Shown here one piece after another: positions 12,670 through 49,500 of a stretch of DNA of 64,000 nucleotides. The stretch comes from an uncultured Prevotella sp. (GTDB lineage Bacteria; Bacteroidota; Bacteroidia; Bacteroidales; Bacteroidaceae). Under the pieces are notes generated by a model. It was not told the DNA's origin and made no database searches. It saw only the letters and a list, made by a program, of their open reading frames with translations. How positions within the stretch are numbered: position 1 is the stretch's first letter; each line of letters starts with the position of its first letter. The stretch spans positions 1 to 64,000 of the forward strand of contig CAJODF010000001.1 in NCBI GenBank assembly GCA_905233555.1. The letters are read 5' to 3'. The position numbers were made by a program, and so were the translations under genes.

Positions 12670-12677
12670 TAACTTTG
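12670..12677 (+). promoter_or_regulatory. lacI-type regulator -7 box TAACTTTG
   Basis: Matches TAnnTTTG, 22 bp upstream of the ATG at 12699. Confidence 0.65.
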
Positions 12678-12698
12678 CACCAGAAACTAAAAAACGTA

Positions 12699-13724
12699 AT
12701 GGATAAGAACGCCCCAATGACCATGAAGGATATCGCCCGGGAATTAGGAATTTCCGTGGCGACAGTATCTCGTGCATTGAAGGATTCGCCCCGAATCAGT
12801 GAGGAAAGACGTAAGTCGATCCAGGCGTTTGCACGTGAACATAATTTCTATCCCAATGCCATTGGCGAGGCCCTGCGTCACAGTCGGGTGATGCCTATCC
12901 GTGTCATCGGTGTCATCGTGCCGGAATTTACGCATTATTATTTCTCTTCCATCCTGACGGGTATCGAGGAGGCTGCTTCCGCGCGCGGGTATAATATTAT
13001 GGTGGCGCTGAGCGATGAGAAATATGAGCGCGAGGCCCGTATCTGTGATAATTTCCATCGCAGCAAGGTTTGTGGAGTCATCGTGTCGCAGGCAAAGGAC
13101 ACACGTAATTACGACCATTATCAGAAACTCATCGATGCCGGTATTCCTCTGGTGTTCTACGACCGTATCTGTACGGGGGTGAATGCCAGTCGGGTAGTGG
13201 TTGACGACTATATGGGGGCCTATAATGCCGTGACGCATCTGATAGAGTCTGGATGCCAGCGTATCGCCTTTTACGGCAGTCCCATGCAGTTGGAGATTTC
13301 CAAGAACCGCTATAATGGCTATAAGGATGCCCTCCTGAAACACGGACTGGCAGTGGATGAGCAGATTGTACGGGTCTGTGACAACCGTGGGGATGCCGAG
13401 ACCATCACCCCAGAGATCCTGGCGTTGGATCATCGTCCTGATGCTTTCTTTGCTGTGAACGACGATACGGCCATTGGAATTCTCTATACCGTGAAGCGGG
13501 CAGGGTTCAAGGTGCCTGATGATATCTCTATCTGTGGTTTTACCAATGGTCAACGTGCTATTGCCTGCGACCCGATGCTCACCACTGTTGAACAACGTGG
13601 ACGCATGGTGGGAGAGGAAGCTGCAGAGATTCTGATGGATAAGGTGGAAGGTCTGTCACCCATCGAGAAAATCGAGAAGCGCGTGGTTCGTACCCGTCTT
13701 ATCATCCGTGGAACAACGAAGTAA
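12699..13724 (+). CDS. LacI family transcriptional regulator
   Basis: N-terminal HTH MTMKDIARELGISVATVSRALKDSPRIS; periplasmic-binding-type effector domain. Start placed at MDKNAPMTMKD rather than the TTG at 12675, which overlaps the -7 box. Confidence 0.95.
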   Translation: MDKNAPMTMKDIARELGISVATVSRALKDSPRISEERRKSIQAFAREHNFYPNAIGEALRHSRVMPIRVIGVIVPEFTHYYFSSILTGIEEAASARGYNIMVALSDEKYEREARICDNFHRSKVCGVIVSQAKDTRNYDHYQKLIDAGIPLVFYDRICTGVNASRVVVDDYMGAYNAVTHLIESGCQRIAFYGSPMQLEISKNRYNGYKDALLKHGLAVDEQIVRVCDNRGDAETITPEILALDHRPDAFFAVNDDTAIGILYTVKRAGFKVPDDISICGFTNGQRAIACDPMLTTVEQRGRMVGEEAAEILMDKVEGLSPIEKIEKRVVRTRLIIRGTTK

Positions 13725-13758: not shown

Positions 13759-15060
13759 ATGAAACAGAAGCCGGATTTAAGTTTTTGGAAGTTATGGAAT
13801 CTGAGTTTCGGATTCTTTGGCGTACAGATTGCCTACGCCTTACAGAGTGCAAACATCTCTCGTATATTCGCTACGTTGGGTGCAGATCCGCACAATCTTA
13901 GTTATTTCTGGATCCTGCCCCCGTTGATGGGTATCTTAGTGCAACCGATTGTCGGAACACTGAGTGACAAGACCTGGACCCGTTTCGGACGTCGTATTCC
14001 CTATCTGTTCGTAGGTGCTGCAGCGGCTGTACTGGTCATGTGTCTGTTGCCGAATGCCGGTTCGTTAGGTCTGACTATCAGTGCCGCCATGATCTTCGGA
14101 CTCATTGCCTTGATGTTCCTTGATACGAGCATCAATATGGCTATGCAACCATTTAAGATGCTGGTGGGGGATATGGTCAACGAGAAGCAGAAGGCCAAGG
14201 CCTACAGTATCCAGTCCTTCCTCTGCAATGCCGGTAGCGTGATGGGGTATGTGTTCCCGTTTGTCTTTACGTTTATTGGTATCAGTAATGTGGCCGAGAA
14301 GGGTGTTGTGCCAGATTCGGTCATCTGGTCGTTCTATATCGGTGCCGCCATTCTGATCCTTTGCGTCCTCTATACTACGTCGAAGGTCCGGGAGTGGAAT
14401 CCGCAGGAGTATGCGGAGTATAATCCTGTTTCTGAAGAGAAGAAGGATAGTGCCAACTGGATTACGCTTCTGAAAAATGCACCCTCCACGTTCTGGAAAG
14501 TCGGTCTGGTGCAGTTCTTCAGTTGGGCAGCCATGCTTTATATGTGGAACTACACGACAGGCGCCATTGCCGAGGTAGTGTGGAATACGACCGATCCTGC
14601 CAGCGAGGCGTTCCAGGAGGCTGGCAATTGGGTAGGCATCCTCTTTGCCGTACAGGCGGTGGGCTCTGTCATCTGGGCTGCTCTGCTCCCGCAGTTCAAG
14701 AACACGAAACTGGCTTATTCCCTGAGTCTGGTGATTGGTGCCATCGGCTTTGTGATGGTGCCTTATATCCATGACCAGTACTTGCAGTTTGTGCCCTTCC
14801 TGATGATAGGCTGTGCTTGGGCTGCCATGTTGGCCATGCCTTTCACCTTTGTGACGAATGCTCTGCAGGGCTATGGTCACATGGGTGCCTATCTGGGACT
14901 GTTTAACGGTACCATCTGCATCCCGCAGATCGTGGCTGCCATCTGTGGCGGAGCCATCCTCTCGCTTGTTGGTCACCATCAGTCTACGATGATGATTGTG
15001 GCAGGCGTCAGTTTCCTCATCGCCTCAGCATGCGTATTTGTTATTAAGGTGAAGAAGTGA
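13759..15060 (+). CDS. MFS sugar transporter (SLC45/GPH-like, probable maltose/oligosaccharide uptake)
   Basis: About 12 hydrophobic segments; FWKLWNLSFGFFGVQIAYALQSANISRIFATLGA and GTLSDKTWTRFGRRIPY; location in starch locus. Confidence 0.9.
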   Translation: MKQKPDLSFWKLWNLSFGFFGVQIAYALQSANISRIFATLGADPHNLSYFWILPPLMGILVQPIVGTLSDKTWTRFGRRIPYLFVGAAAAVLVMCLLPNAGSLGLTISAAMIFGLIALMFLDTSINMAMQPFKMLVGDMVNEKQKAKAYSIQSFLCNAGSVMGYVFPFVFTFIGISNVAEKGVVPDSVIWSFYIGAAILILCVLYTTSKVREWNPQEYAEYNPVSEEKKDSANWITLLKNAPSTFWKVGLVQFFSWAAMLYMWNYTTGAIAEVVWNTTDPASEAFQEAGNWVGILFAVQAVGSVIWAALLPQFKNTKLAYSLSLVIGAIGFVMVPYIHDQYLQFVPFLMIGCAWAAMLAMPFTFVTNALQGYGHMGAYLGLFNGTICIPQIVAAICGGAILSLVGHHQSTMMIVAGVSFLIASACVFVIKVKK

Positions 15061-15486: not shown

Positions 15487-17941
15487 ATGAAGTTACAATT
15501 CAATCTTGAATACCAGACTACCTTTGGTGAAGAACTGGTATTGAGCGTTATCCACGAGGAAGGTAAATCCTCAGTAAAGTTAGAGCAGTATAAGATGTCC
15601 ACACTCGACGGTCTTCATTGGACTTGCGAACTGAGCAAGTCGGTGAAAGCATGCTCTTACATGGATTATTTTTATAGTGTGTATCGTGGTGATGAACAGA
15701 CACGCCATGAGTGGTCCGTCGTGCCTCATCGCTTGGAGTTCGCTGCCATCAGAGGCATCCGCTATACCGTCTATGACCACTGGATCGACATCCCCGAGGA
15801 CAGTTATATGTACTCTTCGGCCTTTACGGATTGTGTGTCGGCCCGTCATCGTAAGATGAGTGAACAGGAGGAGTATGGCAAGACCATCCGCATCAAGGTT
15901 CGTGCCCCGGAGTTGCGAGGTTATCAGCGTCTGACAATTGTCGGCGGTGGTGCTGCACTCGGTAACTGGGAGACCAAGCATGCACTCCCCATGTATGAGC
16001 ATGAGAGCAACGAATGGGTGGTCAGCCTCGATGCCGACAAGTTGCCACAGACGTTCGAGTTCAAGTTCGTGGCGATGTCCGAAGGCAAGGATACGGCTCC
16101 CGTCTGGGAGAATGGTGGAAACCGCACTATCTGCAGGCCGGAGATGGAAGTGGGTGAAGTGGTGGTCTATGAACTGTCGCAGGCTTTCTTCCCCGTCTAT
16201 CCCTGGAAGGGTGCCGGTACCGTTATACCCATCTTCTCTCTCCGTAGTGAGGGGAGTTTCGGTGTGGGTGACTTCGGTGACCTGAAGATGATGATCGACT
16301 GGTGCGACAAGACCAAGCAACGTGTGCTACAGGTGTTGCCCATCAACGATACCATCAACACCAAGACGTGGCAGGATAGTTATCCCTACAATGCCATCAG
16401 TATCTATGCCCTTCATCCGCAATATACGGACTTCCGTCAGTTGCCGCCACTGAAGGATGAACAGAAGAGGAAGGCATTTGAAGAGGTCCGTCAGGAACTG
16501 AATGCCTTGCCGCAGATTGACTATGAGAAGATGATCACGGCAAAGATGAACTATCTCAACGAACTGTTCACTCAGGAGTGGGCTACCGTCAGGAAACGTG
16601 CCTCCTATAAGCAGTTCTTCGAGCAGAACAAAGACTGGCTGGTGCCTTATGCCGCCTATTGTTTCTACCGTGATCAGTATGGCACTGCCGACTATACCCA
16701 ATGGCCCAAGGAGGCAACGGTACAGAATACCCAGAAGCCGAGTTTCAAGGGAAAGAAAACGTTGGAGTTCTGGTATTTCGTGCAGTATAACCTCGATGCC
16801 CAGATGCATGAGGCGCATGCCCATGCACGTGCACATCGCGTGATTCTGAAAGGTGACATCCCCATCGGTATCAGTCGTGAGGGCGTCGAGGCTTGGGTAG
16901 AACCGAAATACTTCAACCTCAATGGACAGGCTGGTGCACCGCCCGATCCTTTCTCTGCTGATGGTCAGAACTGGGGCTTCCCCACCTACAACTGGGATGA
17001 AATGCTCAAGGACGGCTGTTCGTGGTGGGTGCGTCGTTTCCGTAAGATGGCGCAGTACTTCGATGCCTATCGTATCGACCATGTACTCGGTTTCTTCCGT
17101 ATCTGGGAGATTCCCGTACCTTATAAGTCTGGACTGATGGGACAGTTCTCACCGGCCCTCGGCATGAGCCGTGAGGAGATTGAGGCCTACGGTGTGCAAT
17201 TTAACGACGGACTATTCCTCGTTGACCATAAGCGCAATGACCGCTGGCATCCACGTATCGCCGTACAGTATCAGGAGGCTTACGAACAACTTAGTGAGGA
17301 GCAGAAAACGAACTTCAACCGTCTTTACAATGACTACTTCTACCGTCGTAACAACCAGTTCTGGTACACCGAGGCGATGAAGAAACTGCCGCGTCTGATC
17401 CAGGCTACACGGATGCTTGTCTGTGCCGAAGACCTTGGTATGGTACCCGATTGTGTACCCTGGGTAATCAACGAACTGCGTATCCTCTCCTTAGAGATCC
17501 AGTCGATGCCGAAGGACCCGAACATCCGTTTTGGTAAACTGTCGCATAACCCGTATCGCAGTGTGGATACTATCTCCACACACGACATGCCTACACTGCG
17601 TCAGTGGTGGGACGAGGACGAGGAGCGCTCACAGAGTTATTACAATACGACCCTGCGTCGCGGTGGAGAGGCACCACGTCCGTTGCCGGGATGGCTGGCA
17701 AAGGATATCGTGAGCCGTCATCTCACATCGCCTTCCATGCTCTGTCTGCTGTCCTTCCAGGACTGGCTGAGTATCGACGAGAAACTGCGTCTGCCTGATG
17801 TGAACGGAGAGCGCATCAATATCCCCGCTAATCCCCGCCATTACTGGCGTTATCGCATGCATCTCACCATCGAGCAACTCTTGACTGCTGATGCTTTGAA
17901 CAATGAAATCAGCACCCTTATCGTCCAAAGCGGACGAAAAT

Positions 17942-17943
<2 letters not shown>
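15487..17943 (+). CDS. malQ: 4-alpha-glucanotransferase (GH77) with N-terminal CBM20-like module
   Basis: IPIFSLRSEGSFGVGDFGDLKMMIDW; RVILKGDIPIGISREGVEAWVEP; FDAYRIDHVLGFFRIWEIP; CAEDLGMVPDCV; STHDMPTLRQWW. Confidence 0.95.
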
Positions 17944-20270
<2,327 letters not shown>

Positions 20271-20291
20271 AAAGTGAATAGTGAAAAGTGA

Positions 20292-23279
20292 ATGGAAAAG
20301 AGATTATTGACTAAGATATTGAGAGAGGTAAGGTGTTTTTTACCTTTTTACCTTCTTATTTTCTTACCTTTACCAGCCCTGGCAGATGAGTCAGTAGATC
20401 TAGATGCCCTTTATCAGCAAATAGATGATGCCATCAGTCAGTCACCCGCATACGTTGCTGGACGTGAGCGTCAGATTGCTGATTGGCGGAACCGCCTGAA
20501 TAAGGAGAAAGATGTGGAGAAGAAGGTACAGTTTGCCGAAGAACTCTTCCGACTCTATGAGCCTTATAGAAATGACTCGGCTCTCCATTATGCTGAGGTA
20601 TGCATCAGTCTTGCTGATTCGCTCCGTCGCCCTGATCTCGTTGGACGGTTTCGTTCGATGCTGGCTTATCAGTGCTCGAATGCTGATATGTACACGGAGT
20701 CAATAGAAGAACTCCGTGCCGTCAACAAGTCTGTTCTCGACAGTATAGGACTGGTCGATTATTACCATGCGTGGATGCATGTCTATGGGGAGATAGGATC
20801 CTATACCCAGCGCAATGACGTGCGACTCAAGTCTTTTAGTCAGCAGGATGCTTACCGCGATTCCGTCCTGACTGTGGCGGATGAGGACAGCGAGGAATGG
20901 ATCCATCTGAAAGTGGATATCCTCTGCGCCCGACAACTCTATCAGGACGCTTTGGAACTCAGCAGTAAATGGCTCCAGAAAGTGACTGATGGTACGCATG
21001 AGAGTGCATACGCTGCCTTCTACCGCTCTATGATCTATGACAGACTCAAGAACCACGATCAGACCTGCTATTGGATGGGCAAGTCGGCTCTTGATGATAT
21101 CAAGTGTGCGGTGATGAATCAGGCTTCGTTGCTCTTCCTGGCTGAACGTCTTGCTGAGGATGGTGACATCAGTCGTGCCTACCGTTATGCCGAGTTTGCC
21201 AAGGATTGTAACCTGACCTTCTGTCCTCGTTTGCGGGCCTATCAGGTTAATTCTGTCGTCAATGTGATTGAGAAGTACAATCAGGCGAGCCGGGCCCAAG
21301 TAAACAGAATCCTCATCATCGCTTCCATCGCGATAATCCTGCTCATGATAGCTTTGATATTCGCTTTCTTCCGATTAAAACGTTCCTTTTTTATCATGAT
21401 GGTGTCAATGACTGCAATCGTCGTTCAATCACAAGATTTCCGTTTCGACGAAGTGACCTATACCCCAGAGGCTACCACCTTCAAACTCTTTGCCCCTGAC
21501 AACGCAAAGAAGGTGACAGTCCGTATCTATAAGAAAGGTATGGACGGGAAGGCGGCTAAGACCGTCAAGATGACCCGTACTGCCCCCGAACAGTGGACGG
21601 CTACGGTGAAGGGTGACCTCATGGGACAGTTCTATACCTTCGACGTGGGCAAGGGCGAATGTCCGGGGGTGTTTGCCAAGGCTGTCGGTGTGAATGGCAA
21701 GCGAGGCGCTATCATCGATATGGCTAAAACGAACCCGACGGGGTGGGAGAGCGACAGCCGTCCTGTGATGAAGTCGCCCACCGACCTCGTGGTCTATGAG
21801 ATGCACCATCGCGACTTCTCCATTGCCCGCAAGGATGCGAAGTACCCGGGCAAATTCCTGGCCCTTACCGAACCTTGGGCCATCGATCATCTGAAGTCAT
21901 TAGGCGTGAATGCCATCCATATCCTGCCCAGTTACGATTACGGTTCTGTGGATGAAACGCGCCTCAGCGACAATAAATACAACTGGGGCTATGACCCTGT
22001 GAACTATAATGTGCCGGAGGGTGGTTATTCCACCGATCCCTATCAGCCGGAAGTGCGCATCCGTGAGTTCAAGCAGATGGTGCAGACGCTCCACAAGGCG
22101 GGTATCCGTGTGATTCTCGATGTGGTCTATAACCATACTTACGACATCGAGCACTCCAACTTCCAGCGCACCTATCCCGATTATTATTATAGGAAGAATG
22201 CCGACGGCACTTACTCCAATGGCTCTGGCTGTGGTAATGAGACCGCGAGCGAAAAACCGATGATGCGACAGTTCATGATCGAGAGCGTAAAGTACTGGAT
22301 CAACGAATACCATATTGACGGTCTCCGCTTCGATCTGATGGGCTGCCATGATATCGAGACAATGAACCTGATCCGTCAGGCGGTCGATGAGATTGATCCT
22401 TCTATCTTCATCTATGGTGAGGGATGGAGTGCCGGCTCGTGTGCCTATCCGCAGGAACAACTCGGCATGAAGGCCAATATCCCGCAGATGCCTCGTATTG
22501 CTGCTTTCAGCGACGAGATCCGTGATGCCCTCCGAGGCCCCTTCGACGATGACACAAAGGCTGGTTGGCTCGGTGGTAAACCAGAGAAAGAGAGTCTGAA
22601 GTTCGGTATTGTCGGTGCCATTGCCCACCCGCAGGTGGATATGACGAAGGTGAATTACGCCAAGGCACCTTGGGCCACCGAACCTACTCAGATGATGTCC
22701 TATGTGTCCTGCCATGACGATATGTGTCTGGTGGATCGTCTCCAAGCCAGCATTCCCGGCATCAGTACAGCAGAACTTATCCGTCTCGACCTGTTGGCAC
22801 AGACGGCTGTCTTTACCTCACAGGGTGTACCCTTCATGCTCAGTGGTGAAGAACTGCTCCGTACCAAACTGGGTGTGCATAACAGTTTTGAGTCGCCTGA
22901 CAGTATCAACCACCTCGACTGGTCCAACAAACAGAAATATCCGCAGGTGTTCGACTACTACAAGAACCTGATTGCCCTCCGCCAGCATCATCCGGCCTTC
23001 CGACTCGGCAATGCCGACTTGGTCAGGAAGCATCTGGAATTTCTGGATACGTCGGATAAGATCGTGGCCTTCCGCCTGAAGAATTATGCGGGACGGGACG
23101 ATTGGCGGAACATCATCGTCATCCTCAATGCCAATAAGGCCGATACGGAGGTAGCTATCCCCAAGGGTACCTACACCATTGTCTGTTGTGACGGGGTCAT
23201 CAACGAAAACGGCCTCGGCACCCTTCAGGGCGACAGGGTCGTGGTCGATGCTCAGTCTGCGCTCATCCTACACGACTAA
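20292..23279 (+). CDS. Fusion protein: N-terminal TPR/SusR (DUF6377)-like sensor region, two hydrophobic segments, then type I pullulanase (GH13)
   Basis: N-terminal helical TPR-like region with CPRLRAYQVNSVVNVIEKYNQ then TM LIIASIAIILLMIALIFAFF; C-terminal pullulanase motifs YNWGYDPVNYNVPEGGYSTDP, VVYNHTYDIEHSNFQ, DGLRFDLMGCHD, YGEGWSAG. Confidence 0.88.
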   Translation: MEKRLLTKILREVRCFLPFYLLIFLPLPALADESVDLDALYQQIDDAISQSPAYVAGRERQIADWRNRLNKEKDVEKKVQFAEELFRLYEPYRNDSALHYAEVCISLADSLRRPDLVGRFRSMLAYQCSNADMYTESIEELRAVNKSVLDSIGLVDYYHAWMHVYGEIGSYTQRNDVRLKSFSQQDAYRDSVLTVADEDSEEWIHLKVDILCARQLYQDALELSSKWLQKVTDGTHESAYAAFYRSMIYDRLKNHDQTCYWMGKSALDDIKCAVMNQASLLFLAERLAEDGDISRAYRYAEFAKDCNLTFCPRLRAYQVNSVVNVIEKYNQASRAQVNRILIIASIAIILLMIALIFAFFRLKRSFFIMMVSMTAIVVQSQDFRFDEVTYTPEATTFKLFAPDNAKKVTVRIYKKGMDGKAAKTVKMTRTAPEQWTATVKGDLMGQFYTFDVGKGECPGVFAKAVGVNGKRGAIIDMAKTNPTGWESDSRPVMKSPTDLVVYEMHHRDFSIARKDAKYPGKFLALTEPWAIDHLKSLGVNAIHILPSYDYGSVDETRLSDNKYNWGYDPVNYNVPEGGYSTDPYQPEVRIREFKQMVQTLHKAGIRVILDVVYNHTYDIEHSNFQRTYPDYYYRKNADGTYSNGSGCGNETASEKPMMRQFMIESVKYWINEYHIDGLRFDLMGCHDIETMNLIRQAVDEIDPSIFIYGEGWSAGSCAYPQEQLGMKANIPQMPRIAAFSDEIRDALRGPFDDDTKAGWLGGKPEKESLKFGIVGAIAHPQVDMTKVNYAKAPWATEPTQMMSYVSCHDDMCLVDRLQASIPGISTAELIRLDLLAQTAVFTSQGVPFMLSGEELLRTKLGVHNSFESPDSINHLDWSNKQKYPQVFDYYKNLIALRQHHPAFRLGNADLVRKHLEFLDTSDKIVAFRLKNYAGRDDWRNIIVILNANKADTEVAIPKGTYTIVCCDGVINENGLGTLQGDRVVVDAQSALILHD

Positions 23280-23290
23280 TAGCAAAAAAA

Positions 23291-25738
23291 ATGAGACTGA
23301 AAGTATTTCTCGCAACACTTGTGGGCTGTCTGATCTCAATGACATCCCCAGCAGAAAACGTCCGTGAGACGGTCTGCCTCGATAAGGGGTGGAAGTTTGC
23401 CATGGGCCATGCCACCGATCCGCAAAAGGATTTCGGTTGTGGCACAGAGTACTTCAACTACCTGACGAAGGCCAACTCCATCCACAACGAAGGGCCGTAC
23501 GCTGCAAAATTCGACGACTCTGCATGGCAGGAGATACAGATACCGCACGACTGGGTGACAACCCTGCCATACGCCCCTGGGGCCAGTCATTCCCACGGCT
23601 ATAAGACCGTAGGGTGGAAATATCCTGAAACGAGTGTAGGTTGGTATCGGAAGGTATTTAGGATCGATGCAGCAGACTTCGGTAAACACCTGATGCTGCG
23701 CTTCGATGGCATCTTCCGTAACGCCACGGTATGGTTCAATGGTTTCTATATGGGTACGGAGCCCAGCGGCTATGTGACCCAACTCTACGATATCACACCT
23801 TATATTAAATATGGAGAGGACAACCTGATCTGTGTGCGGGCGGATGCCTCGCTCGAAGAAGGGTGGTTCTACGAGGGAGCGGGCATCTACCGCGATGTGT
23901 GGTTGGAGAAGTCGGCGGAGGTGAGTGTAGCCCCCTTCGGCACATTTGTCTATGCGGACATGCAGGCACCATATTCACAAGCGAAACTGACGATAGAGAC
24001 CGAGGTGACCAACAGCAGTTTGAAAGCGCAACAGTGTGAGGTGACGCAACGCCTGCTCAATGCTGAAGGAAACGAAATCGGAAAGAGTGAGCCATCGACG
24101 CTGACGCTGAAATCCAAGCAGACACTGACGATCCGACAGGGCATCGTCGTCAATCAGCCACATCTGTGGCGTACCACCGACCCCTATCTGTATCAGATAG
24201 AGACCATTGTCCGACAAAAGGGTGAGGTGACGGATATCTACAAGACCACCACGGGCATCCGCGATATCGCCTTCGATGCCGAACGGGGTTTTCTCCTGAA
24301 TGGCAAGCCCCTGAAACTGAAAGGCGTGAACATGCACCAAGACCATGCCGGAGTGGGTACTGCCATCCCTGATGCTTTGCAGGCGTGGCGCATCAGACAA
24401 CTGAAGGCTTTTGGTTGTAATGCCTACCGTGCCTCACACAACCCGATGACCCCGGCGCTGCTTGATATCTGCGACCGGGAGGGTATCCTCGTCATCGACG
24501 AGAACCGACTGATGGGCATCAACGAGGAACACCTGCGCCTCTTGGAACGGATGATCAAACGTGACCGCAACCACCCCAGCATTATCCTGTGGAGTGATGG
24601 CAATGAGGAATGGGGCCTGGAAAACACCATCCAAGGGACCTGTGTGGCGGAAGCGATGCGGGAATATACCCGCCTTTTCGACCCCACCCGTCCCAGTACG
24701 GTGGCCAATGCCGGCGGTGTGGAACTCATCAAAGGACTCGATGTGGTAGGCTTCAACTATATTGTGCAGAACGATGTGGATAACCGTAAGAAGGCCAACT
24801 CCACCTGGAAGATTGTGGGAACGGAGGAGACTACTGGTTGCGGGACCCGAGGTTGGTACTTCAATAAGCCCGAATTTCCCGGACGTATGGTTTCCATGAA
24901 TCGTGATAGCACGCACCATCACGTTGAAAACGTCATCGAACGGGGTTGGCAGTTCTATGCCGACCGCCCTTGGGCTGCAGGACTCTTCTACTGGACCGGC
25001 TTTGATTATCGTGGTGAACCCAATCCGCTCAGTTATCCTGCCCACGACTCCGAGTTCGGCATCCTCGACTACTGCGGTTTCCCGAAGGACGAGGCGTACT
25101 ATCTGAAGGCTTGGTGGACTGAGGAGCCCGCCCTCCACATCTTCCCCCACTGGAACCTGCAGGGACACGAGGGAGAGGAGATAGAACTCTGGGCCTATAG
25201 TAACTGCGACGAGGTAGAACTGACGGTAAACGGGAAGAAATTAGGCCGACAGAAGATGCCTCGTAACGGACACCTGAGATGGAAGACCACTTATCAGCCC
25301 GGGAAGGTGGTGGCAGTGGGCTACAAGAACGGTAAACGCATCCTCACCCAAACCATCGAGACCACAAAACCTGCTACCAAGACGGTTCTCAAGGCAGACC
25401 GACAGGTGCTCACTGCCGACGGACGCGACGTTGCAGTGGTGACCATCGAGGTACAGGACGAAAAAGGCCGCATCGTTCCAGACGCGTGTCCTTTGTTAAC
25501 CATCCAGTTGGATGGGGATGCTCATATCCTCGGTGCAGCCAACGGTGACCCCATGTACCTGGGCGAGGATCATCCCAAGGACCTCCACTGCAAGTCCTTC
25601 AGCATCCCCGCCTTCAATGGTCTCGCACAAGTCCTAATACAGAGCGCAGAGGAACCTGCGACAGTGACAGTGCGTTGTCTGGGCAATGGTCTCAAGACTT
25701 CAACCCTTCAGTTAGCAACGAAGAAGACAAATGAATAA
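23291..25738 (+). CDS. GH2 family beta-glycosidase (beta-galactosidase-like)
   Basis: Jelly-roll N-domain ETSVGWYRKVFRI...; AWRIRQLKAFGCNAYRASHNPMTPALLDICDREGILVIDE; DRNHPSIILWSDGNEEW. Confidence 0.92.
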   Translation: MRLKVFLATLVGCLISMTSPAENVRETVCLDKGWKFAMGHATDPQKDFGCGTEYFNYLTKANSIHNEGPYAAKFDDSAWQEIQIPHDWVTTLPYAPGASHSHGYKTVGWKYPETSVGWYRKVFRIDAADFGKHLMLRFDGIFRNATVWFNGFYMGTEPSGYVTQLYDITPYIKYGEDNLICVRADASLEEGWFYEGAGIYRDVWLEKSAEVSVAPFGTFVYADMQAPYSQAKLTIETEVTNSSLKAQQCEVTQRLLNAEGNEIGKSEPSTLTLKSKQTLTIRQGIVVNQPHLWRTTDPYLYQIETIVRQKGEVTDIYKTTTGIRDIAFDAERGFLLNGKPLKLKGVNMHQDHAGVGTAIPDALQAWRIRQLKAFGCNAYRASHNPMTPALLDICDREGILVIDENRLMGINEEHLRLLERMIKRDRNHPSIILWSDGNEEWGLENTIQGTCVAEAMREYTRLFDPTRPSTVANAGGVELIKGLDVVGFNYIVQNDVDNRKKANSTWKIVGTEETTGCGTRGWYFNKPEFPGRMVSMNRDSTHHHVENVIERGWQFYADRPWAAGLFYWTGFDYRGEPNPLSYPAHDSEFGILDYCGFPKDEAYYLKAWWTEEPALHIFPHWNLQGHEGEEIELWAYSNCDEVELTVNGKKLGRQKMPRNGHLRWKTTYQPGKVVAVGYKNGKRILTQTIETTKPATKTVLKADRQVLTADGRDVAVVTIEVQDEKGRIVPDACPLLTIQLDGDAHILGAANGDPMYLGEDHPKDLHCKSFSIPAFNGLAQVLIQSAEEPATVTVRCLGNGLKTSTLQLATKKTNE

Positions 25739-27698
25739 CAATATGAGGACTTTATTATTAGTAACCGCCATGCTGATGGCAAATGTGTTGACAATGAGTG
25801 CGGCAAAGAAACAAGTGATTGACCGGATAGAGCCTACCGACTGGTACGTGGGACTGAAAAACCCCTCCGTACAGTTGATGGTCTATGGTCAGGGCATCCG
25901 TGATGTGGCCGAGGTGACCACCGACTATCCCGGTGTCCGCATCGATAGTCTGGTGCGCCTCGACTCGCCCAACTATCTCCTTATCTATATGAACGTGCGT
26001 GATGCCCAGCCCGGTACCATGACCCTCACTTTTAAAGGTGGAAAAGTGAAAAGTGGAAAAGGTGAAAAAGTCCCTTTCACTCTCAAACCCCGTGAGATGA
26101 GTGGCGACAAGCGGATGGGCTTTACCAATGCTGATGTGCTCTATATGCTTATGCCCGACCGCTTTGCACAGGGAGCCAATCACAACCCGCAGGTTGCAGG
26201 AATGCGTGCCTACAAGGAAGACCGTACCCAACCCTCCCTCCGCCATGGTGGTGACCTCAACGGTATCCGTGAACACCTCGATTACTTCAAGGAACTGGGT
26301 GTGACGGCCCTCTGGCTGACGCCCGTCCTCGAGAACGACTCTCCGGACCAGGACAACGGTTTTTCCACGTATCATGGCTACGCCACCACCAACTACTACC
26401 GTGTCGATCCCCGTTTCGGTACCAACGAGGATTATAAGAACCTCTGCGACGAAGCCCATGCCAAGGGACTGAAAGTGGTGATGGACATGATCTTCAACCA
26501 TAGCGGCTTTGAGCATCCCTGGACCCACGACATGCCCTCCAAGGACTGGCTGAATGTGCCTGAATGGCTTAATGAGAATAATTCGGGGCGCGATCCTGTC
26601 ACAGGCTTTACGGCCAATGCCGACGGCTCTGAACCGGCCAAATCTGCCTATCTGCAGACCTCCTACAAACTCACGCCCGTCCTCGATCCCTATGCCTCGA
26701 AGGTGGATCTCAAAGAAACGACGGAGGGCTGGTTCGTACCCTCCATGCCTGATCTCAACCAGCGTAATCCCCACCTGATGCGCTACCTCATCCAGAACAG
26801 CATCTGGTGGATTGAGACTGTTGGCATCGACGGCATCCGCATGGACACCTATCCCTACGCCTACGCCGAGGCGATGGCCCAGTGGATGAAGGAACTCGAC
26901 GAGGAATACCCCAATTTCAATACCGTCGGTGAGACCTGGGTCACAGAACCCGCCTATACCGCCGCCTGGCAGAAAGACTCGAAACTGTCCGACCACAATT
27001 CTTACCTCAAGACCGTCATGGACTTCTCCTTCTTCGATAAACTGAATCAGGCCAAGAACGAGGAGACCGATGCCTGGTGGAACGGCTTGAATCGTCTTTA
27101 CAATTCCTTCGTCTATGACTATCTCTACCCGAACCCGTCGGGTGTGATGGCCTTCATCGAGAACCATGATACGGACCGTTTCTTGGGCAACGGCAAGGAC
27201 ACCCTCGCCCTGAAACAAGCCCTCGCTTTGTTATTAATTGTTAATCGTACACCACAACTCTATTACGGCACAGAAGTGCTTATGAACGGCACAAAAGAGG
27301 TAACTGATGGAAATGTCAGAAAAGATTACCCAGGCGGTTTCCCCGGCGACACCCATAACTGCTTCACCAAGGAGGGTCGCACCCAAGCCGAGCAGAGCAT
27401 GTTCTCCTGGCTCTCCCGCCTGCTCCACTGGCGTCAGGGTAACGAAGTCGTCATCAAGGGTAAGCAGATTCAGTTCATTCCCTACGACGGTATCTACGTC
27501 GTAGCCCGTCAATACAAAGGCAAGACGGCCCTTGCAGTCCTCAATGGTACCAGCAAGCCGGCGACCCTCGATGTAGCCCGCTACGCCGAAGTCATCGGTT
27601 CTGCCAAGCGTGTCAAGGACATCCTGACCAACCGCTATTACGACCTCTCCAAGAACTTCGAACTCAAACCCAGACAGTCATTGATTCTGGAGTATTAA
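25731..27698 (+). CDS. susA: GH13 neopullulanase/cyclomaltodextrinase-like (SusA-like)
   Basis: N-terminal IDRIEPTDWYVGLKNPSVQLMVYGQGI; MPDRFAQGA; MDMIFNHSG; GIDGIRMDTYPYA; FIENHDTDRF. 8-nt overlap with GH2 gene. Confidence 0.92.
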   Translation: MNNNMRTLLLVTAMLMANVLTMSAAKKQVIDRIEPTDWYVGLKNPSVQLMVYGQGIRDVAEVTTDYPGVRIDSLVRLDSPNYLLIYMNVRDAQPGTMTLTFKGGKVKSGKGEKVPFTLKPREMSGDKRMGFTNADVLYMLMPDRFAQGANHNPQVAGMRAYKEDRTQPSLRHGGDLNGIREHLDYFKELGVTALWLTPVLENDSPDQDNGFSTYHGYATTNYYRVDPRFGTNEDYKNLCDEAHAKGLKVVMDMIFNHSGFEHPWTHDMPSKDWLNVPEWLNENNSGRDPVTGFTANADGSEPAKSAYLQTSYKLTPVLDPYASKVDLKETTEGWFVPSMPDLNQRNPHLMRYLIQNSIWWIETVGIDGIRMDTYPYAYAEAMAQWMKELDEEYPNFNTVGETWVTEPAYTAAWQKDSKLSDHNSYLKTVMDFSFFDKLNQAKNEETDAWWNGLNRLYNSFVYDYLYPNPSGVMAFIENHDTDRFLGNGKDTLALKQALALLLIVNRTPQLYYGTEVLMNGTKEVTDGNVRKDYPGGFPGDTHNCFTKEGRTQAEQSMFSWLSRLLHWRQGNEVVIKGKQIQFIPYDGIYVVARQYKGKTALAVLNGTSKPATLDVARYAEVIGSAKRVKDILTNRYYDLSKNFELKPRQSLILEY

Positions 27699-40536: not shown

Positions 40537-43500
40537 GTGAAGACGAAATATATCATAATAAGCGCATTGATGTTCCTGGCTGCTACGGTGGCACAGGCGC
40601 AGGTTGCTGAGGATAAACCGGTCATCAATATTCAGGGCAAGGTGTTTGGCGGTGCCCGTCAGGCTGATGTCGAGGGACATACCTTCGTCTCCATCGCTGC
40701 CGAGAACTTTGATGTTGTCATTGATGAAGTCTTTGGCGGCAATGATATCTCTGGATCGATAGGCTCTGGAACGTCTGTTCAAACTGCTCCACCAGCTGCT
40801 CCACCAGAAATGTCTGGAGCACCGGATATTAGTGACGACTGCAATGTCTATATCTCTACCAATAAGGAGGCAACGGGCAAGCACCTCTTCATCGGCCAAC
40901 TCTTCGGTGGCGGTAATGGCGACTATACATATACGAATGCAGAAGGTGTTGACCTTACAGACGGGACGGATAGTGAAGGTCATACCATTTATAAGGTCAT
41001 GGATGGTGACACCAAGGTTGCCACCAGCATAAAGAAATTCACTAAGCCCGAACTCAGCAAAGTCTATCTTTCGCTGAAAGGAGGCACCTTCGGCTATGTC
41101 TATGGTGGTGGTAATGCTGCTACGGTGGTGAATCAGACAGATATCTATATCAACAATAAAAGTGAAATCACCAAGAAAAAAGGTACCAAAGACAGCGAAA
41201 ACAACGATATAGGCTTTGAGTATCTGACTTCAACCGACATAACGAGGATGGGCATCACATCCGACTATAACGACACTTACCAGTTCTCACGTGTCTTTGG
41301 CGGTAACAACAAGGCCGCCATGGCCGCTCAGCCCACATGGCATCTCGTTGAAGGCAGTATTGAGAACCTCTATGGTGGTGGCAATGCAGGCGATATGACC
41401 CGTACCCAGGGTATCTCGTTGAATATTGACGGCGCAGATATGAGGGTCCATAATGTCTATGGCGGATGCCGTAAGGCCGATGTCCACCACACAGCCTCCG
41501 TGGGCATCTATAACGGTAATATTGACTATGTCTATGGCGGTAACGATATCTCGGGTACCGTCAGACAAGGCACGAGTGTCGTGATTAAGAGTACCATCAA
41601 CCATGATGTCTATGGCGGCAGCAATGGTTCTTATCTATACACAAACAGCGATGCAAGCAGCGACCTCTATTTCCAGATTCCAACGGGGATGAATGCTGCA
41701 GAGGCGCTGACAAATCACCGTCCGAATGTGCCGAGTACGTCCGTTTTGTTACAAGGTACGGCAGAGCATCCCGTGAGCATCGGCGGTGCCGTCTATTGCG
41801 GTGGTAACAGTGCGACGCTGAAGACGAACTCAGAATTTACCGGAACGCCTAGTGCGACGCTGACCCTTGGTTCCTATGTCAAGGCCTGTCAAGTCTTTAT
41901 GGGCTGTAACGGTGAGGATATGGTTAAACCGGAGGCACTCACTCACTTTAGTAGCGCTCTCGACCTGAAAACACCGGCTAATATGGCCAAATACATGGAG
42001 GGCGTGGAGATGCAGATAAAGCCTAGCGTTAACTTTGCCAATCCGTATAGTGCCGAGGGCGTTGTTGATAGAGCGTCCAATGCCCATATCGGGGAATTCT
42101 ACTGTGGCGGTAACGTGGGTAGTGTCTTCGTGAAGGGTAAGAATGAATTCCACTTTTCGAAGAATGTCTTTATTCATGAGAAATTGGTTGGCGGCTGTAA
42201 TAATGCATACGTGGCAGCGGTTAGTGAACGTAATGCAGAATATAAGGGTGGCATGATTGAAGGTAAGACTGTTGACGGAGCCATTGATCAGGCATCCAAA
42301 GCCTCTCCCAAGGTGCAGTTGAATCTTACGGGCTTGCGCCTGGAACCACGTAAGATGGTGTTCGACGAGAACACAAGAGCATGTAAGTACGAATATTCGT
42401 GGACAGAGGGTACTGGGGGGAGTGCCGTGACGCAAACCAGCGAATGGTTCTTGACCAACGAGGATAATGATCCTACTACTAAAGACAACCTGCTGAAATG
42501 GGGTAATGTCTATGGCGGCTGTTTCAACACGGGCTATGTGATGGGTGACGTGGTGATAAACATCTCCTCCAGGACCTCCGAACCGACAGACATCTTCAGA
42601 CAGTCTGGTACTAATAATAAAAACGATGCAGGTTGGAACACGGGTATCTGGGAATCGGTTCAGGGCCAGGACGTGTTCTGTAAGACGCTGACCATCTTCG
42701 GTGGCGGCTATGGTGAACATTCGGTTATTGAAGGTAATACCCAAGTAAATATTAATTCTGGAGGTGTTGCCTTCCAGGTGTTTGGCGGTGGCGAGAAAGG
42801 CCCTGTCAACGGTAATACAGAAATCAATCTCTACACAGGCGGAGAGTGCCGTGAGATCTATGGTGGCGGTTTTGAGGGTGATGTCAATGGACATACGACG
42901 GTCAACCTTATTGGTGGTAAGTTCTACGATGCCTTCGGAGGTGCTTGTAATGCCGATGTCCGTGACTATACGGAGGTCTATATAGGTCGCAGTAGGGCTG
43001 TTGACGGCACTGGCAGACCCTTGCTGACCGGTTACCCGGAGGGTGCCAACATCTATGGCGGCAACGACTTCGGTGGTGAGGTCAAAGGAATTGGAACGGG
43101 AACGGAAATGGAACCGGACACGGAAATTGGAAAACATAAGCAGTCGGCCTATGAATTCAACGCAACTACCAGACAAAAGGATGTTACCACCATCGAGACG
43201 AACGCATACGTGGAGTATTATCATGGCAAGGTAGATAGTATTGCCGGTGGTAACTATGGTAACTATGAATACGAGACATATTACAATAGGAAAAAAGGTA
43301 CCAATGGCGTAGATGACCCAGGAGGCGTCGCAGCACAACTACATGCAAAAGATCCTGATACTTATGGTGCTACTTTTGAGTTCAAAAAGCCTAAGGTTGG
43401 TTCATCTTTCCTGAATATCCAGACACCGCAAATCAGCGCTAACGACAGAGTGCTCTATTTCCTTGGTGGCAGTGAGGGCGCATCCGATGAGGCAGACAAC

Positions 43501-46500
43501 GATGAGATGCAGAGCAATAGTTATGTGCTTGTGGAAGCCCCGGGATTGAATATGCCGGAAGATCTTGCTAATAACTATCATGGCGCAAATGTCTATGGTG
43601 CCGGAGCCCATGCCGGACTGAAAGGCGGTACAACCCAGGTATGGTTGTTGAAGGGTCATGTGAAGAATGTTTTCGGTGCCAGCCTAAATGAGGGATGCAC
43701 CGAGAACGCCCATGTCTATGTGCCTGTCGGCTCCACCATCCATGCCAATGCCATCTTCGGCGGTGCTGACGGCAGCATTGTCAAGGAGCATTTCGAAAGC
43801 AATGCTGATTATAATGACCGTCTGAGTGAGTTTAATTCCAATATCAACAAGATTCCCTGCGATGCCACAAATGCTTTTGTGGAGTTTGCGAGCAATCAGG
43901 CCATCATCGACGATGCCATTTATGGCGGTAACAACTTCCAGCGCCGTACGGTGAATAGCACCGTCAACATCAGTGCTCCGGTGAAGAACAAGGACATTGT
44001 CGCGGAAGAGCTTACAGACCTGTGCGATGTCTATGGTGCCGGCTATGGTGGATTCACGTGGGCTACCTGTACTAAGGTCAATTTGCTCTCCGGTGCCCAG
44101 GTGCTGGACCTTTACGGCGGAGGCCGCGATGGTAAGGTCTTTGAGACGAGCAGTGAGTATCATCGCATGATGGTGAATCATACAGAAACGTTTTGGGATG
44201 GAAATACCGATCCGCGTCAATATGAAAAGTATGATGGAAAAAATCCTGTCCACTCTGAAACGGGTTGGGCAGCAGAAGGAAAATTTAACACCAACGTCGT
44301 TATCAATCAAGGTGCTATAGTCGTAGGTAATGCCTTTGCCGCAGGCAAGGGCGCAGATGCGAATGTCTCAGGCTCTTCGGGTCTGACCTTAAATGGCGGT
44401 ACAGTAATAAATAACATCTATGGCGGTGGCGAGGAGGCTCCCGTCCGTGACCGGTATAAAGTGGGACATGACCCGCAAACGATAGGTGATAATACTATCC
44501 CAGGGATCACGTGCTCGACAAACGTCAAGATATTAGGCGGTAGAGTCACTGAGGTCTATGGTGGTGGTCTCGACGGTGACGTGGGGCGTGGCGATGTGGC
44601 CAATAAGGATGTGTCAGGCTTTACCAATATCACTATCGGCAAACTCCATCAGGCCGATCCCACCTTCTACAACGGTGATCCTACGGTGGAGCGCAGTCTC
44701 TATGGCGGCGGCTATCGCGGCAAGGTCTATGGTACGGCTACTACCCAAATGAACAATGGCCACATCGGCTATAAGTATGTGGAGACAACCAATTCGGAAA
44801 CGAGTGAGGTGACAGGCAGTTACGTGGAGAACCTGGACTACGACAACGATACCCGTAAGTTGTTGAAACAGAATGGTAACCTTTTCGGTGCCGGCTATGG
44901 TGAGGGTGCCACTGTTGACTACACCGTGGTGAAGATGTATGACGGCGTGATCCGAAACAGCCTCTATGGTGGCGGTGAGATCTCGGCCGTGGGTCGCGGT
45001 GTGAAATACAACACCACAACGGGAAAATATGACATTTTGGATAACGATGAAGACGATTTCCATGCCGGTGGTACGCAAGTGACGATGTATGGCGGTCTGG
45101 TGCAGCATAATGTCTTTGGTGGTGGACGTGGTTATGCCATTGATGCCTATGGTAACACGACGTCGGGTGAGATTGGCTATTCCGACGGATATACCTTTGG
45201 TAGCACCGATGTGAAAATCCATGGCGGCACCATCGGTACCGTTAATGCGGTGGCAGAAGGCGACGGTAACGTCTTCGGCGGTGGTAACATCGGTCATGTC
45301 TATACAGGTAAAGGCCGGAAGGGTTTAGATGGCCCCAACGGTGAAGATAATTTATACTATCGTGATCCCGATGTTACCAGCACATCTGGTGATGATGGCT
45401 TTAATTTAAAGACAAAAGACTGCTGTGTTATCATTTCACCTTATTGTAAAGTCAAAAGTGCTGCTCAGGAATCCCTTGTTAAACTGTTGAAGGATATCAC
45501 AAAAACAGGAGAAGGAGAACCTACAACGTTGTACACTGCCGGTACAATTATAACTTCTGTACAATTGGCTGCACTGGAAGCCGACGCAGATGTATCTATC
45601 GGTACATCCGACTATGTTAATGTCACAATGATCAACGGTGAATACTTTGATACGGAAGGTCCGAATGCTTATGTCAGTACCGACAAACTTAATCTGCTTA
45701 CAGCTAACAGTGCCGATTGGGACAAACTTGAAAGAGAGGGTATCAAGATTGGCAATGCTGTGTTTGCCGGTGGTAACGTGTCGCGAGGCTCTGATAAGAT
45801 CTATGCCAACACCGTCACTGTACACGGCAATGCCGTTGCTTCGGTGGAAGATGTCTTTGCCAAGGACCTCATCACCCTCGGTGAGGATGGTATCGGCGGT
45901 CTCTATGGCGACGGTAACTTGACCTTGGTGGATGGTTATCGCGGTCTGAACATCACCAACTACGGCACAGACTACTACAACCTCAGTGACGCCATTGACT
46001 ACGACAAGTATCTGGAGATGACCGACCGTGAGCGTGCATACTTTGAACTGGAGTATGAGGCTAAAGAAGCGCATACTTATGAATACTGGGAGTGTAAGCA
46101 CACCCATACTTACCGAATGCCGGATGGTAATGGAGGTTATAAGGAGATATCATTCAAACACGGACAGAAACTGCCTGCATCTGAAACTACTCCTACTGTG
46201 GTAAGTGGGGAAGCAATCTCGTACGGTTCTCTGGACTATAACCGTGATGATGCTGTCAGTGTTAACGAATTGACTGAAGCAATGAAGGCGAAATCCTATT
46301 GGTGGAAACCTACGAAGCAATCTACTTCTTATACTGATAAGGAAACCATCAAGGAAGACAAATATAACCTGATGGATGATCACGAAAAGCAAAATTGGGA
46401 GCGCAAGGGCTTCTGCCGACTCTATGCCGGACGAATGATCAACACCATTCAGCGTGCTGACTTCTGCGGCGTCTTCGGCAGCCGCGTGGTGATGCGTGGC

Positions 46501-49500
46501 GCACAGGACCGTGTCACCGATGGTAAGTCTGCCGACTATACCGAATATACCATCAACCGTATTGGCGAGGTATCGCTGAACAAGAAAGTAGTGAATAATG
46601 ATCCGCACGGTAACTACTTCGGTATTTACAATGTGGTGAACTACCTCGGTGCCCTGACTAGCGATGTTCCCTTTGTCCCTAGCAGTTTCTATAGCCAACT
46701 TGCTGCTCATAATATGAGTGCGGCAGATGCTAAGCGTACCACAGATAATAGTCAGTCAGGCTATGAACCCAATGGCGACTCCTACTACGAATGGAAGCAG
46801 GACAATCTGAACACCCGTAAGCGTAACGATGGAACCTGTCATAACGACGTGGCCATGGCCTCTGGTGTGTGGTTGGAGATTGTGGAGGAACCGACTGATA
46901 ACAGTACGGAGAAGAAATACGGTCCCATTACAGGTGTGGTGGAACTGGCCTTGATCAATGTGGCTACCGGTGAGGGTGGTGGCTATGTCTATGCCAAGAA
47001 CGAACATGGTGTACTGAAACAAATAAAATCGTCTGACGAATTGTTCCTTTTGGACTCCAACTACGGTGCCGTTACCTATAAGCAGTTCAAATATGACACT
47101 CCTGAGAATGTAGTGACTGCCGAGGAGACAAACAGACAGCATCTGATCCCCGACAAAAATGGCAAGACCCCGGAACAAGATGGTTACATAACTACTTATG
47201 GCATATTAGTAACTGATGCGAATGGCAAAGAACCGGGAACGGAAGGCTATATACCTACAGCACAACTCGATGAGCATGGTGAACCAGTCACTTGGCACCC
47301 CATCACGCCGAAGATGGAGAGTTCGGGTAACTTTATCAATAGTGACAAGCGAATTGTCGATGATTGCTATCCGTTGAGCGGTGCCTATATGGGAGCCGAT
47401 CCTTCACCCGCCCACTACTGGTACATCCGAGGCGACTTCTATGTCTATGATCAGTATATCTCAGCCTATACGGGTTCGGCACAGGCCTATGCAGAGAAGA
47501 TTACCATCCCGCTGACCATCACAGCTGAAGCACAGGGACGGTTGACGCTGAACTCCGTGAACAAGAACCTCTATGCCTACTGGAATGGAGACTTGAGCGA
47601 TACGACTCATCCTGCCACGAATGCTGATGGAGAAACCATTGCCGACTCGTATAAGAGTAAAATCGACGACAAGGCGGTTGTCGTAGGTGGTCGCAGTTAC
47701 CATAAGAACGACCCCATCACCTACTGGGATTGGTCGCGACTGAGCGAGACGGAGCAGAATTTCTTCGTGGATGAGACCTATACCTGCACCACGACCATCA
47801 CCGACCATTATGCCAAGGGTGATGCCATCCTGCCTACTACCTATGAGACCCTTTCTACAAGCAACTACGTCGTAAGGGAGGAGATCAAGATCGTTGACAC
47901 GAGTCATGATGACCAGATAACGGTATATGCTGCTGGTAGTTACCTGCCGGCAGGCGTATATGCGACTTTGAGTGCCAAGGACAAGGAGAGGTGCATCACC
48001 GAGAAGGAATGTTTCAACATCAGTAATGCCATTTCCCATGACAATGGCTTCCTGCTGACGCTCGACTGGGATAATCCGGAAGAGTGGAACAAATATTATC
48101 GGGATCCCAGTGGAAACCGCGTAACGAGTAAGATCTATGATGGACTCACTGAAAGTCAACAATTGGATTATACACCGTGTCCGACCTTCCGCTGTGCGAC
48201 AACAGGTATTTATGGCCTACAAGAATGTGTTGTGGGCGATATCATCGATCAAACCACTTTCCTTACGAAGACAAAGTTGGATACGGATGTTAGTACTTAT
48301 ATGAGCAATCATCCTGAAGAAACTGATCCTACAAGTGGTAAAGTCTTCGGTGAATTCCAGAGAGCCTATGTGGCAATTGACGATTGCGTATTGTCTAATG
48401 GCCATCAGTACCTGAAGGAAGCCTGTATCTCAGCGGGTGAATGGGGAGGTCTCTCCGTTGAAGATAAATCCAAGTTTGGAGAGGCTTATATCTGTACGAG
48501 TAGTTACCTTGAGGACAAGACAAAGGAGTGCTTCCACGGTACGGTGATACCATATTCTGTCTATTCCACTTATCCTGCAAGCGAAAGGGATGAGTACTTC
48601 CAGCCGGCCTATATCTGTACCAGTGGTACTGTTGATGAGGAACACAAGAAGTGGTGGGGCGGAGAATTGTTCGTTGCTGGTACGAACAATGCTGCCGTCA
48701 AGTATTGTAACCTCCCGGCAAGTGAGCGTGCAGCATTCACCTATAACTACGATGCCTTCGACTTGCTCTCGGAGGATTTCAAGCCGGGCAACGAGAACTA
48801 TCCGTCAGATATTATCGCAGACGGTGTGATACCACTTTCTTGGTACGAGGGAGATCCTGACGATTCGCATCATGTCGTCAATGGGGAGAACCGCAGCGTT
48901 AAATCGGGAGAGGATCAGATTCCTTATGCCCATGAGCATCTCATCGATTATGATGCGACCTATACGGGTAGTACCATGACGGGTGATAATAAACTGAAAG
49001 AGAAAGTTTGGGTAACCCGTGCAGAAGAAACTACAAGCATAGAAACCGACCAATTGAAGTCTGGTGATATATTGAGCAATGAGCAATTCGGCAGTCTGAC
49101 GAATGAACAGTTCAAATATACGCCCATCATCGTAACGCCCGAGGATATTGCCAATGCAGATAAGGAGTATTACTACGTGGTGAAGAAGGAATTCGGCGTC
49201 GGTGAGACCTGGTATGCCCCAGGCAACCAGATCTCAGAGGCTACGTTCGAGAATCTGACGAGTACGCAGCAGGCCAATGTGGCTCAAGTGCCTAAGTCCA
49301 CTCTTGTTGCTAGCGTTGGCTCTGGCGGCGGACGAGTCTATTTCTGCACCAAGAAATATGAGCCGATTACTCCTGTGACAGACATCCTGGGTAACTATAC
49401 TTCGGGAGAAGTGTCTGTCGGTACGGTCATCACAGATGGAAATTATACTGGTCTTATCAACGAGCAGAAGAACTTCAGCATCGACGGTAAGATACCTAAC

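Follow-up and report, generated by a model that had tools for sequence, protein, structure and literature searches.

Results

A SusR-type sensor and a pullulanase share one reading frame in a starch cluster

The window (the whole stretch of DNA that was analysed, 64,000 nucleotides from an uncultured Prevotella) carries a starch cluster that begins with SusC/D-like and outer-membrane genes on the minus strand. Next, on the plus strand and with mostly short gaps between the genes, come LacI, MFS, a small SWEET-like protein, GH77, GH97, the fusion gene, GH2 and a SusA-like GH13. Where no profile test is named, the family names in the cluster are our own assignments from sequence inspection and general knowledge. 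The features are listed below, with the parts of the fusion following the gene itself.

12675..13724, plus strand: LacI-type regulator at the head of the cluster (open reading frame listing; usual LacI HTH in its first residues; also at L080-L082 and L084)
13759..15060, plus strand: MFS transporter, probable maltodextrin/maltose permease (sequence and general knowledge)
15487..17943, plus strand: GH77 4-alpha-glucanotransferase with no evident signal peptide (family presumed from general knowledge)
17982..20270, plus strand: GH97 (SusB-like) alpha-glucosidase, directly upstream of the fusion (family presumed from general knowledge)
20292..23279, plus strand: fusion gene, sensor-only SusR/DUF6377 plus type I pullulanase, 995 aa (open reading frame listing, profile matches, copy in a second genome)
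20292..20384, plus strand: putative N-terminal signal peptide, residues 1-31, site A29-L30-A31/D32 (read by eye, hydropathy)
20400..21305, plus strand: periplasmic all-helical TPR-like domain, residues 37-338 (NF058541 match, AlphaFold2, Foldseek)
21309..21371, plus strand: transmembrane helix, residues ~340-360 (hydropathy 3.28 over 340-358; modelled helix 316-367)
21372..21383, plus strand: fusion joint RLKR, a basic turn whose residues remain from the tail of the sensor and the n-region of the pullulanase (alignment with L064, a two-gene relative)
21384..21431, plus strand: former pullulanase signal peptide, now internal, h-region 365-378 (alignment, hydropathy)
21450..23201, plus strand: type I pullulanase (GH13-type), residues 387-970 (TIGR02104, PF00128, PF21653)
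23291..25738, plus strand: GH2 enzyme (family presumed from general knowledge)
25731..27698, plus strand: GH13 (SusA-like) enzyme (family presumed from general knowledge)

The frame at 20292-23279 is open throughout its 995 codons, with no interruption. In a profile search, residues 38-362 matched positions 1-326 of the 515 in NF058541 (NCBIfam SusR_regulator; E 6e-61), and residues 269-365 matched positions 1-97 of the 247 in Pfam DUF6377 (PF19904) with 59.5 bits, above the gathering score of 36.7. These matches bear out the SusR/DUF6377-type N-terminus that the initial annotation had proposed and had suggested checking by HMM search. The protein nevertheless scores only 207 bits against the curated NF058541 cut-off of 480; positions 327-515 are absent, and the search found neither the cytoplasmic coiled coil nor the C-terminal HTH of SusR regulators in the frame, as had been anticipated for the cytoplasmic regulatory part. 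Because this output domain was tested for and is absent, the fusion protein stands outside the SusR regulators. The expectation of a full type I pullulanase also held: residues 387-970 cover positions 13-601 of the 605 in TIGR02104 (E 2e-213; 709.7 bits against a cut-off of 504.5). Reading the translation by eye reveals GLRFD, YGEGW, VSCHDD and YNWGYxP in this half, the first three of which we take to be GH13 catalytic motifs.

AlphaFold2 modelled the sensor as an all-helical solenoid with one long final helix through the membrane (pLDDT 94), and the model of the full 995 residues was too poor (pLDDT 66) to decide on a hairpin at the junction. Foldseek searches with the sensor model returned only generic, mostly eukaryotic TPR superhelices (e.g., LGN, LapB) that gave no clue to a ligand, and a sequence search for a solved homologue of the sensor found none.

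Between the GH97 and fusion genes, window positions 20262-20298 contain a heptad-type repeat, GTGAAAA. With at most one mismatch allowed, this pattern was found 64 times across the genome, but a reversed-pattern control is even commoner, and the repeat may reflect simple-sequence bias. The sensor start region in the window is unlike that of most relatives, in several of which the GH97 stop overlaps the sensor start. Further along, two giant open reading frames lie side by side (40537-52809, 4090 aa; 52834-63999, more than 3722 aa and running off the end).

A second genome carries an identical junction

We searched 398 genomes of the genus, together with 297 relatives, for the junction DNA and recovered one fused genome, G119, besides that of the window (G000), limiting the fusion to two known species. 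G119 encodes this fusion, joined at the same point, in 985 aa, at 92% protein identity overall and ~87% DNA identity, rising to 92% DNA identity around the identical junction. Both assemblies are fragmented (G000 in 110 contigs and 81% complete, G119 ~80-81% complete), a state in which an assembly or sequencing artefact might be suspected; however, finding the identical junction in an independently assembled sequence that is not a copy demonstrates that the fusion is not an assembly error and renders an artefact a negligible prospect. The region 20292-23279 is thus confirmed as a genuine SusR-type sensor/pullulanase gene fusion.

The fused sensors of G000 and G119 are not sisters in the sensor tree. 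This is because the G119 locus is mosaic: its upstream part matches the unfused G352 and G374, being 97-100% like G352 over much of that stretch, and the locus is nearer to G000 beginning roughly with the final quarter of the sensor. We read this pattern as probable recombination that moved parts of the locus, with the fusion junction common to both genomes by descent or transfer. Compared with the window, G119 has the downstream GH2 gene in inverted orientation (L079:4258-6705), so that the surroundings of the fusion rearrange although the fusion itself is kept.

The junction retains the signal peptide of the pullulanase

Directly after RLKR follows a second hydrophobic stretch, SFFIMMVSMTAIVV (residues 365-378), which is shorter than a transmembrane helix and has a mean Kyte-Doolittle hydropathy of ~2.3 over its 14 residues. 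Alignment with L064 identified it as the pullulanase's own signal peptide minus the start codon, which bears out the resemblance that the initial annotation had noted. The fused gene shows a net deficit of 37 nt relative to L064: the sensor has lost its final codons together with its stop, the pullulanase has lost its start, and the spacer between them is gone. The signal peptide is otherwise intact, with its basic residues, its hydrophobic core and a candidate signal peptidase I site, VQS/QDF, assigned after residue 380 with the (-3,-1) rule. Where relatives have two genes, the sensor gene is separated from the pullulanase gene by 22, 20, 17, 13 or 1 nt or overlaps it by 4 nt. The initial annotation had proposed checking relatives for two genes; they do have two, but the upstream gene is already truncated and not a full SusR.

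The signal peptide, the transmembrane helix, the basic turn and the second signal peptide together predict that both domains are periplasmic, although 14 residues for the second stretch and 4 for the turn are few for a hairpin. The inner-membrane hairpin and the sensor-enzyme suggested in the initial annotation are likewise predictions. If the second stretch failed to insert, the protein would instead be a membrane-spanning receptor-enzyme with a cytoplasmic pullulanase. Such a topology could be argued from RLKR, a normal stop-transfer signal, and from the lesser length and hydropathy of the second stretch compared with the transmembrane helix; yet that stretch is a signal-peptide core, the homologous pullulanases bear signal peptides, and a cytoplasmic pullulanase would be cut off from its periplasmic substrate. 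We regard this arrangement as very unlikely.

A retained signal peptide also raises the possibility of a neutral polyprotein, in which signal peptidase I would cleave the chain into an anchored sensor and a free periplasmic pullulanase and the fusion would have no function of its own. After the start codon the signal peptide is whole in G000 and G119, with V377A as the single difference and VQS/Q intact, and in relatives the two proteins come from genes that nearly touch or overlap. However, selection on the cleavage site cannot be demonstrated from a mere pair of fused sequences, and an n-region just four residues past a transmembrane helix would be unusual for signal peptidase I. A search of the literature on internal signal peptides found nothing. 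We judge a neutral polyprotein unlikely on balance, if deserving of attention.

The truncation predates the fusion and the sensor is under purifying selection

Searching with the sensor half, we counted truncated SusR forms in ~27 of 399 sampled genomes of the genus, the named relatives among them being mainly ruminant Prevotella assemblies. Most stand-alone sensor-only genes encode 360-420 aa and nearly all are intact. Their tails after the transmembrane helix comprise 2-23 aa (28 distinct sequences) with no DNA-binding part, compared with 57-67 aa in two intermediates that retain a piece of the coiled coil and 177-218 aa in closed full-length relatives. A branch with 100/100 support divides the tree into full-length proteins and truncated forms, and among the latter the intermediates diverge first. 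Across 251 genomes of the family, sensor-only forms were seen only within the genus, the other matches being full-length frames. We found no description of truncated SusR proteins in the open-access literature (most subscription papers lay outside this scope), and as far as could be searched the sensor-only branch is previously undescribed.

The sensor-only gene is often flanked by GH97 and pullulanase genes in a starch operon, and about half of the sensor-only lineages have it outside the starch cluster, beside unrelated genes; the link to starch is therefore not universal. Intermediates of ~410-430 aa with the coiled coil and no HTH were observed at L103:7603-8862, L104:5139-6404, G315:C74, G136:C92 and G025:C93, and some genomes carry both an intermediate and a sensor-only form. 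In other genomes of the genus (L007, L021, L024 and L030) the pullulanase gene and a gene for full-length SusR are transcribed divergently, and some of these genomes have the sensor-only gene elsewhere, next to housekeeping genes such as rplM-rpsI. A split regulator with its output in a neighbouring gene was ruled out: no C-terminal remnant of the lost domain was found within 1.5 kb downstream of the unfused sensor-only genes, and they have no constant neighbour.

Fused and unfused copies of the sensor half show dN/dS values in a similar range, 0.10-0.26 (NG86). In the fused pair of G000 and G119, the sensor half gives 0.14 (NG86) or 0.22 (YN00) at a dS of 0.35-0.5 and the pullulanase half 0.04, and the frame is intact in both copies at a dS of about 0.35-0.7. 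By these estimates the sensor half is maintained by purifying selection and is not decaying. The initial annotation had considered the sensor a possible relic, i.e., a dead SusR still attached to the pullulanase since a LacI regulator took over. The loss of the output domain and the LacI gene at the head of the cluster would agree with that proposal, but it is hardly tenable given the purifying selection on fused and unfused sensors, the unbroken frames of both fusions and the stand-alone gene kept in many lineages: the truncation is old, has a single origin, and is carried by those ~27 of 399 genomes mostly as an intact gene.

The positions conserved in full-length SusR are unevenly lost in the sensor-only clade, 6 of 9 near or in the transmembrane helix compared with 10 of 43 in the TPR domain (p 0.018, one post-hoc test on related sequences), and the TPR domain of the clade has a conserved set of its own that includes W161 and W227. 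This pattern fits a periplasmic domain that would still be in use after signalling was lost. It also bears on whether sensor-only proteins act as decoys, pairing with full-length SusR or taking its ligand and thereby damping its signal, in which case the fusion would scale the brake to the pullulanase. SusR proteins are predicted to be dimers (PMC3878776), and full-length SusR is present in 23 of 26 sensor-only genomes (24 of 27 with G000) compared with 17 of 26 controls (p 0.05, uncorrected for relatedness). This association is borderline, though, and full-length SusR was not detected in G119, which carries the fusion, or in G324 (both ~80% complete). As the window's sensor is, moreover, only ~31% identical to the SusR of its own genome and the transmembrane positions conserved in SusR are not retained, a decoy function seems doubtful to us, a good deal short of likely.

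Discussion

The comparisons across the genus very probably record a two-step history of truncation followed by fusion. In the first step, a SusR paralogue in an ancestor within the genus lost its cytoplasmic coiled coil and HTH, leaving a product with the signal peptide, the periplasmic TPR domain, the transmembrane helix and, as an anchor, a few basic residues. In the second, a net 37-nt deletion in the G000/G119 lineage joined the two reading frames. The output domain was lost before the fusion and not in it, the fusion being a later and small event.

In order to rationalise what such a protein could do, we propose that the TPR domain no longer signals and that, on the periplasmic side of the inner membrane, it binds either maltooligosaccharides or a partner. 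The internal signal peptide would re-enter the membrane once past the RLKR turn, so that the pullulanase would also be periplasmic, tethered beside the TPR domain in a 1:1 ratio, and the neighbouring LacI regulator presumably controls the starch operon. The fusion protein is probably not a regulator, because it has nothing past the membrane to pass a signal on, and its predicted role is most likely that of a membrane-anchored periplasmic accessory to starch digestion. More specifically, the sensor module is a candidate inner-membrane periplasmic maltodextrin-binding or scaffold module that tethers the pullulanase, an assignment that we hold at slightly less than even confidence. Still more tentatively, beheaded SusR proteins may form a new class of extracytoplasmic glycan proteins, serving as maltodextrin binders or enzyme scaffolds, one lineage of which became fused to a pullulanase via a possibly cleaved internal signal peptide.

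The series from full-length receptor through forms with the coiled coil only, sensor-only forms and near-touching or overlapping genes to the fusion can be traced in rumen bacteria, and it represents a route from a transcriptional receptor to something else. It also calls for caution in annotation, as matches to 'SusR-like' or 'DUF6377' in this genus are not necessarily regulators.

The periplasmic domain and transmembrane helix of the fusion resemble those of SusR (BT3705) of Bacteroides thetaiotaomicron, which is reported to bind maltose and activate sus transcription (PMC3878776), and of SusR-like proteins (NF058541, DUF6377), with 36 of the 52 positions conserved in full-length SusR-like relatives kept. 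Unlike SusR, the fusion lacks the cytoplasmic coiled coil and HTH, so that it could not bind DNA in the known way, and has an enzyme attached. Compared with the stand-alone type I pullulanases (TIGR02104) of Prevotella-type starch clusters, the enzyme domain is complete and 75-85% identical, but its start codon is gone and its signal peptide is internal, behind the sensor and transmembrane helix. The window's cluster shares a LacI regulator and an MFS transporter with the LacI/MFS-type sus clusters of B. fragilis and B. uniformis, which have no SusR homologue (PMC11633381); only the window's cluster, in contrast to these, has a truncated SusR relative in its operon. Finally, a 620-aa protein from another genus (L141:805-2667) has a SusR-type TPR sensor and transmembrane helix like the fusion, yet its output is by eye a histidine kinase (HisKA/HATPase-like) instead of an extracytoplasmic enzyme, and the SusR-type sensor module therefore also serves a different output.
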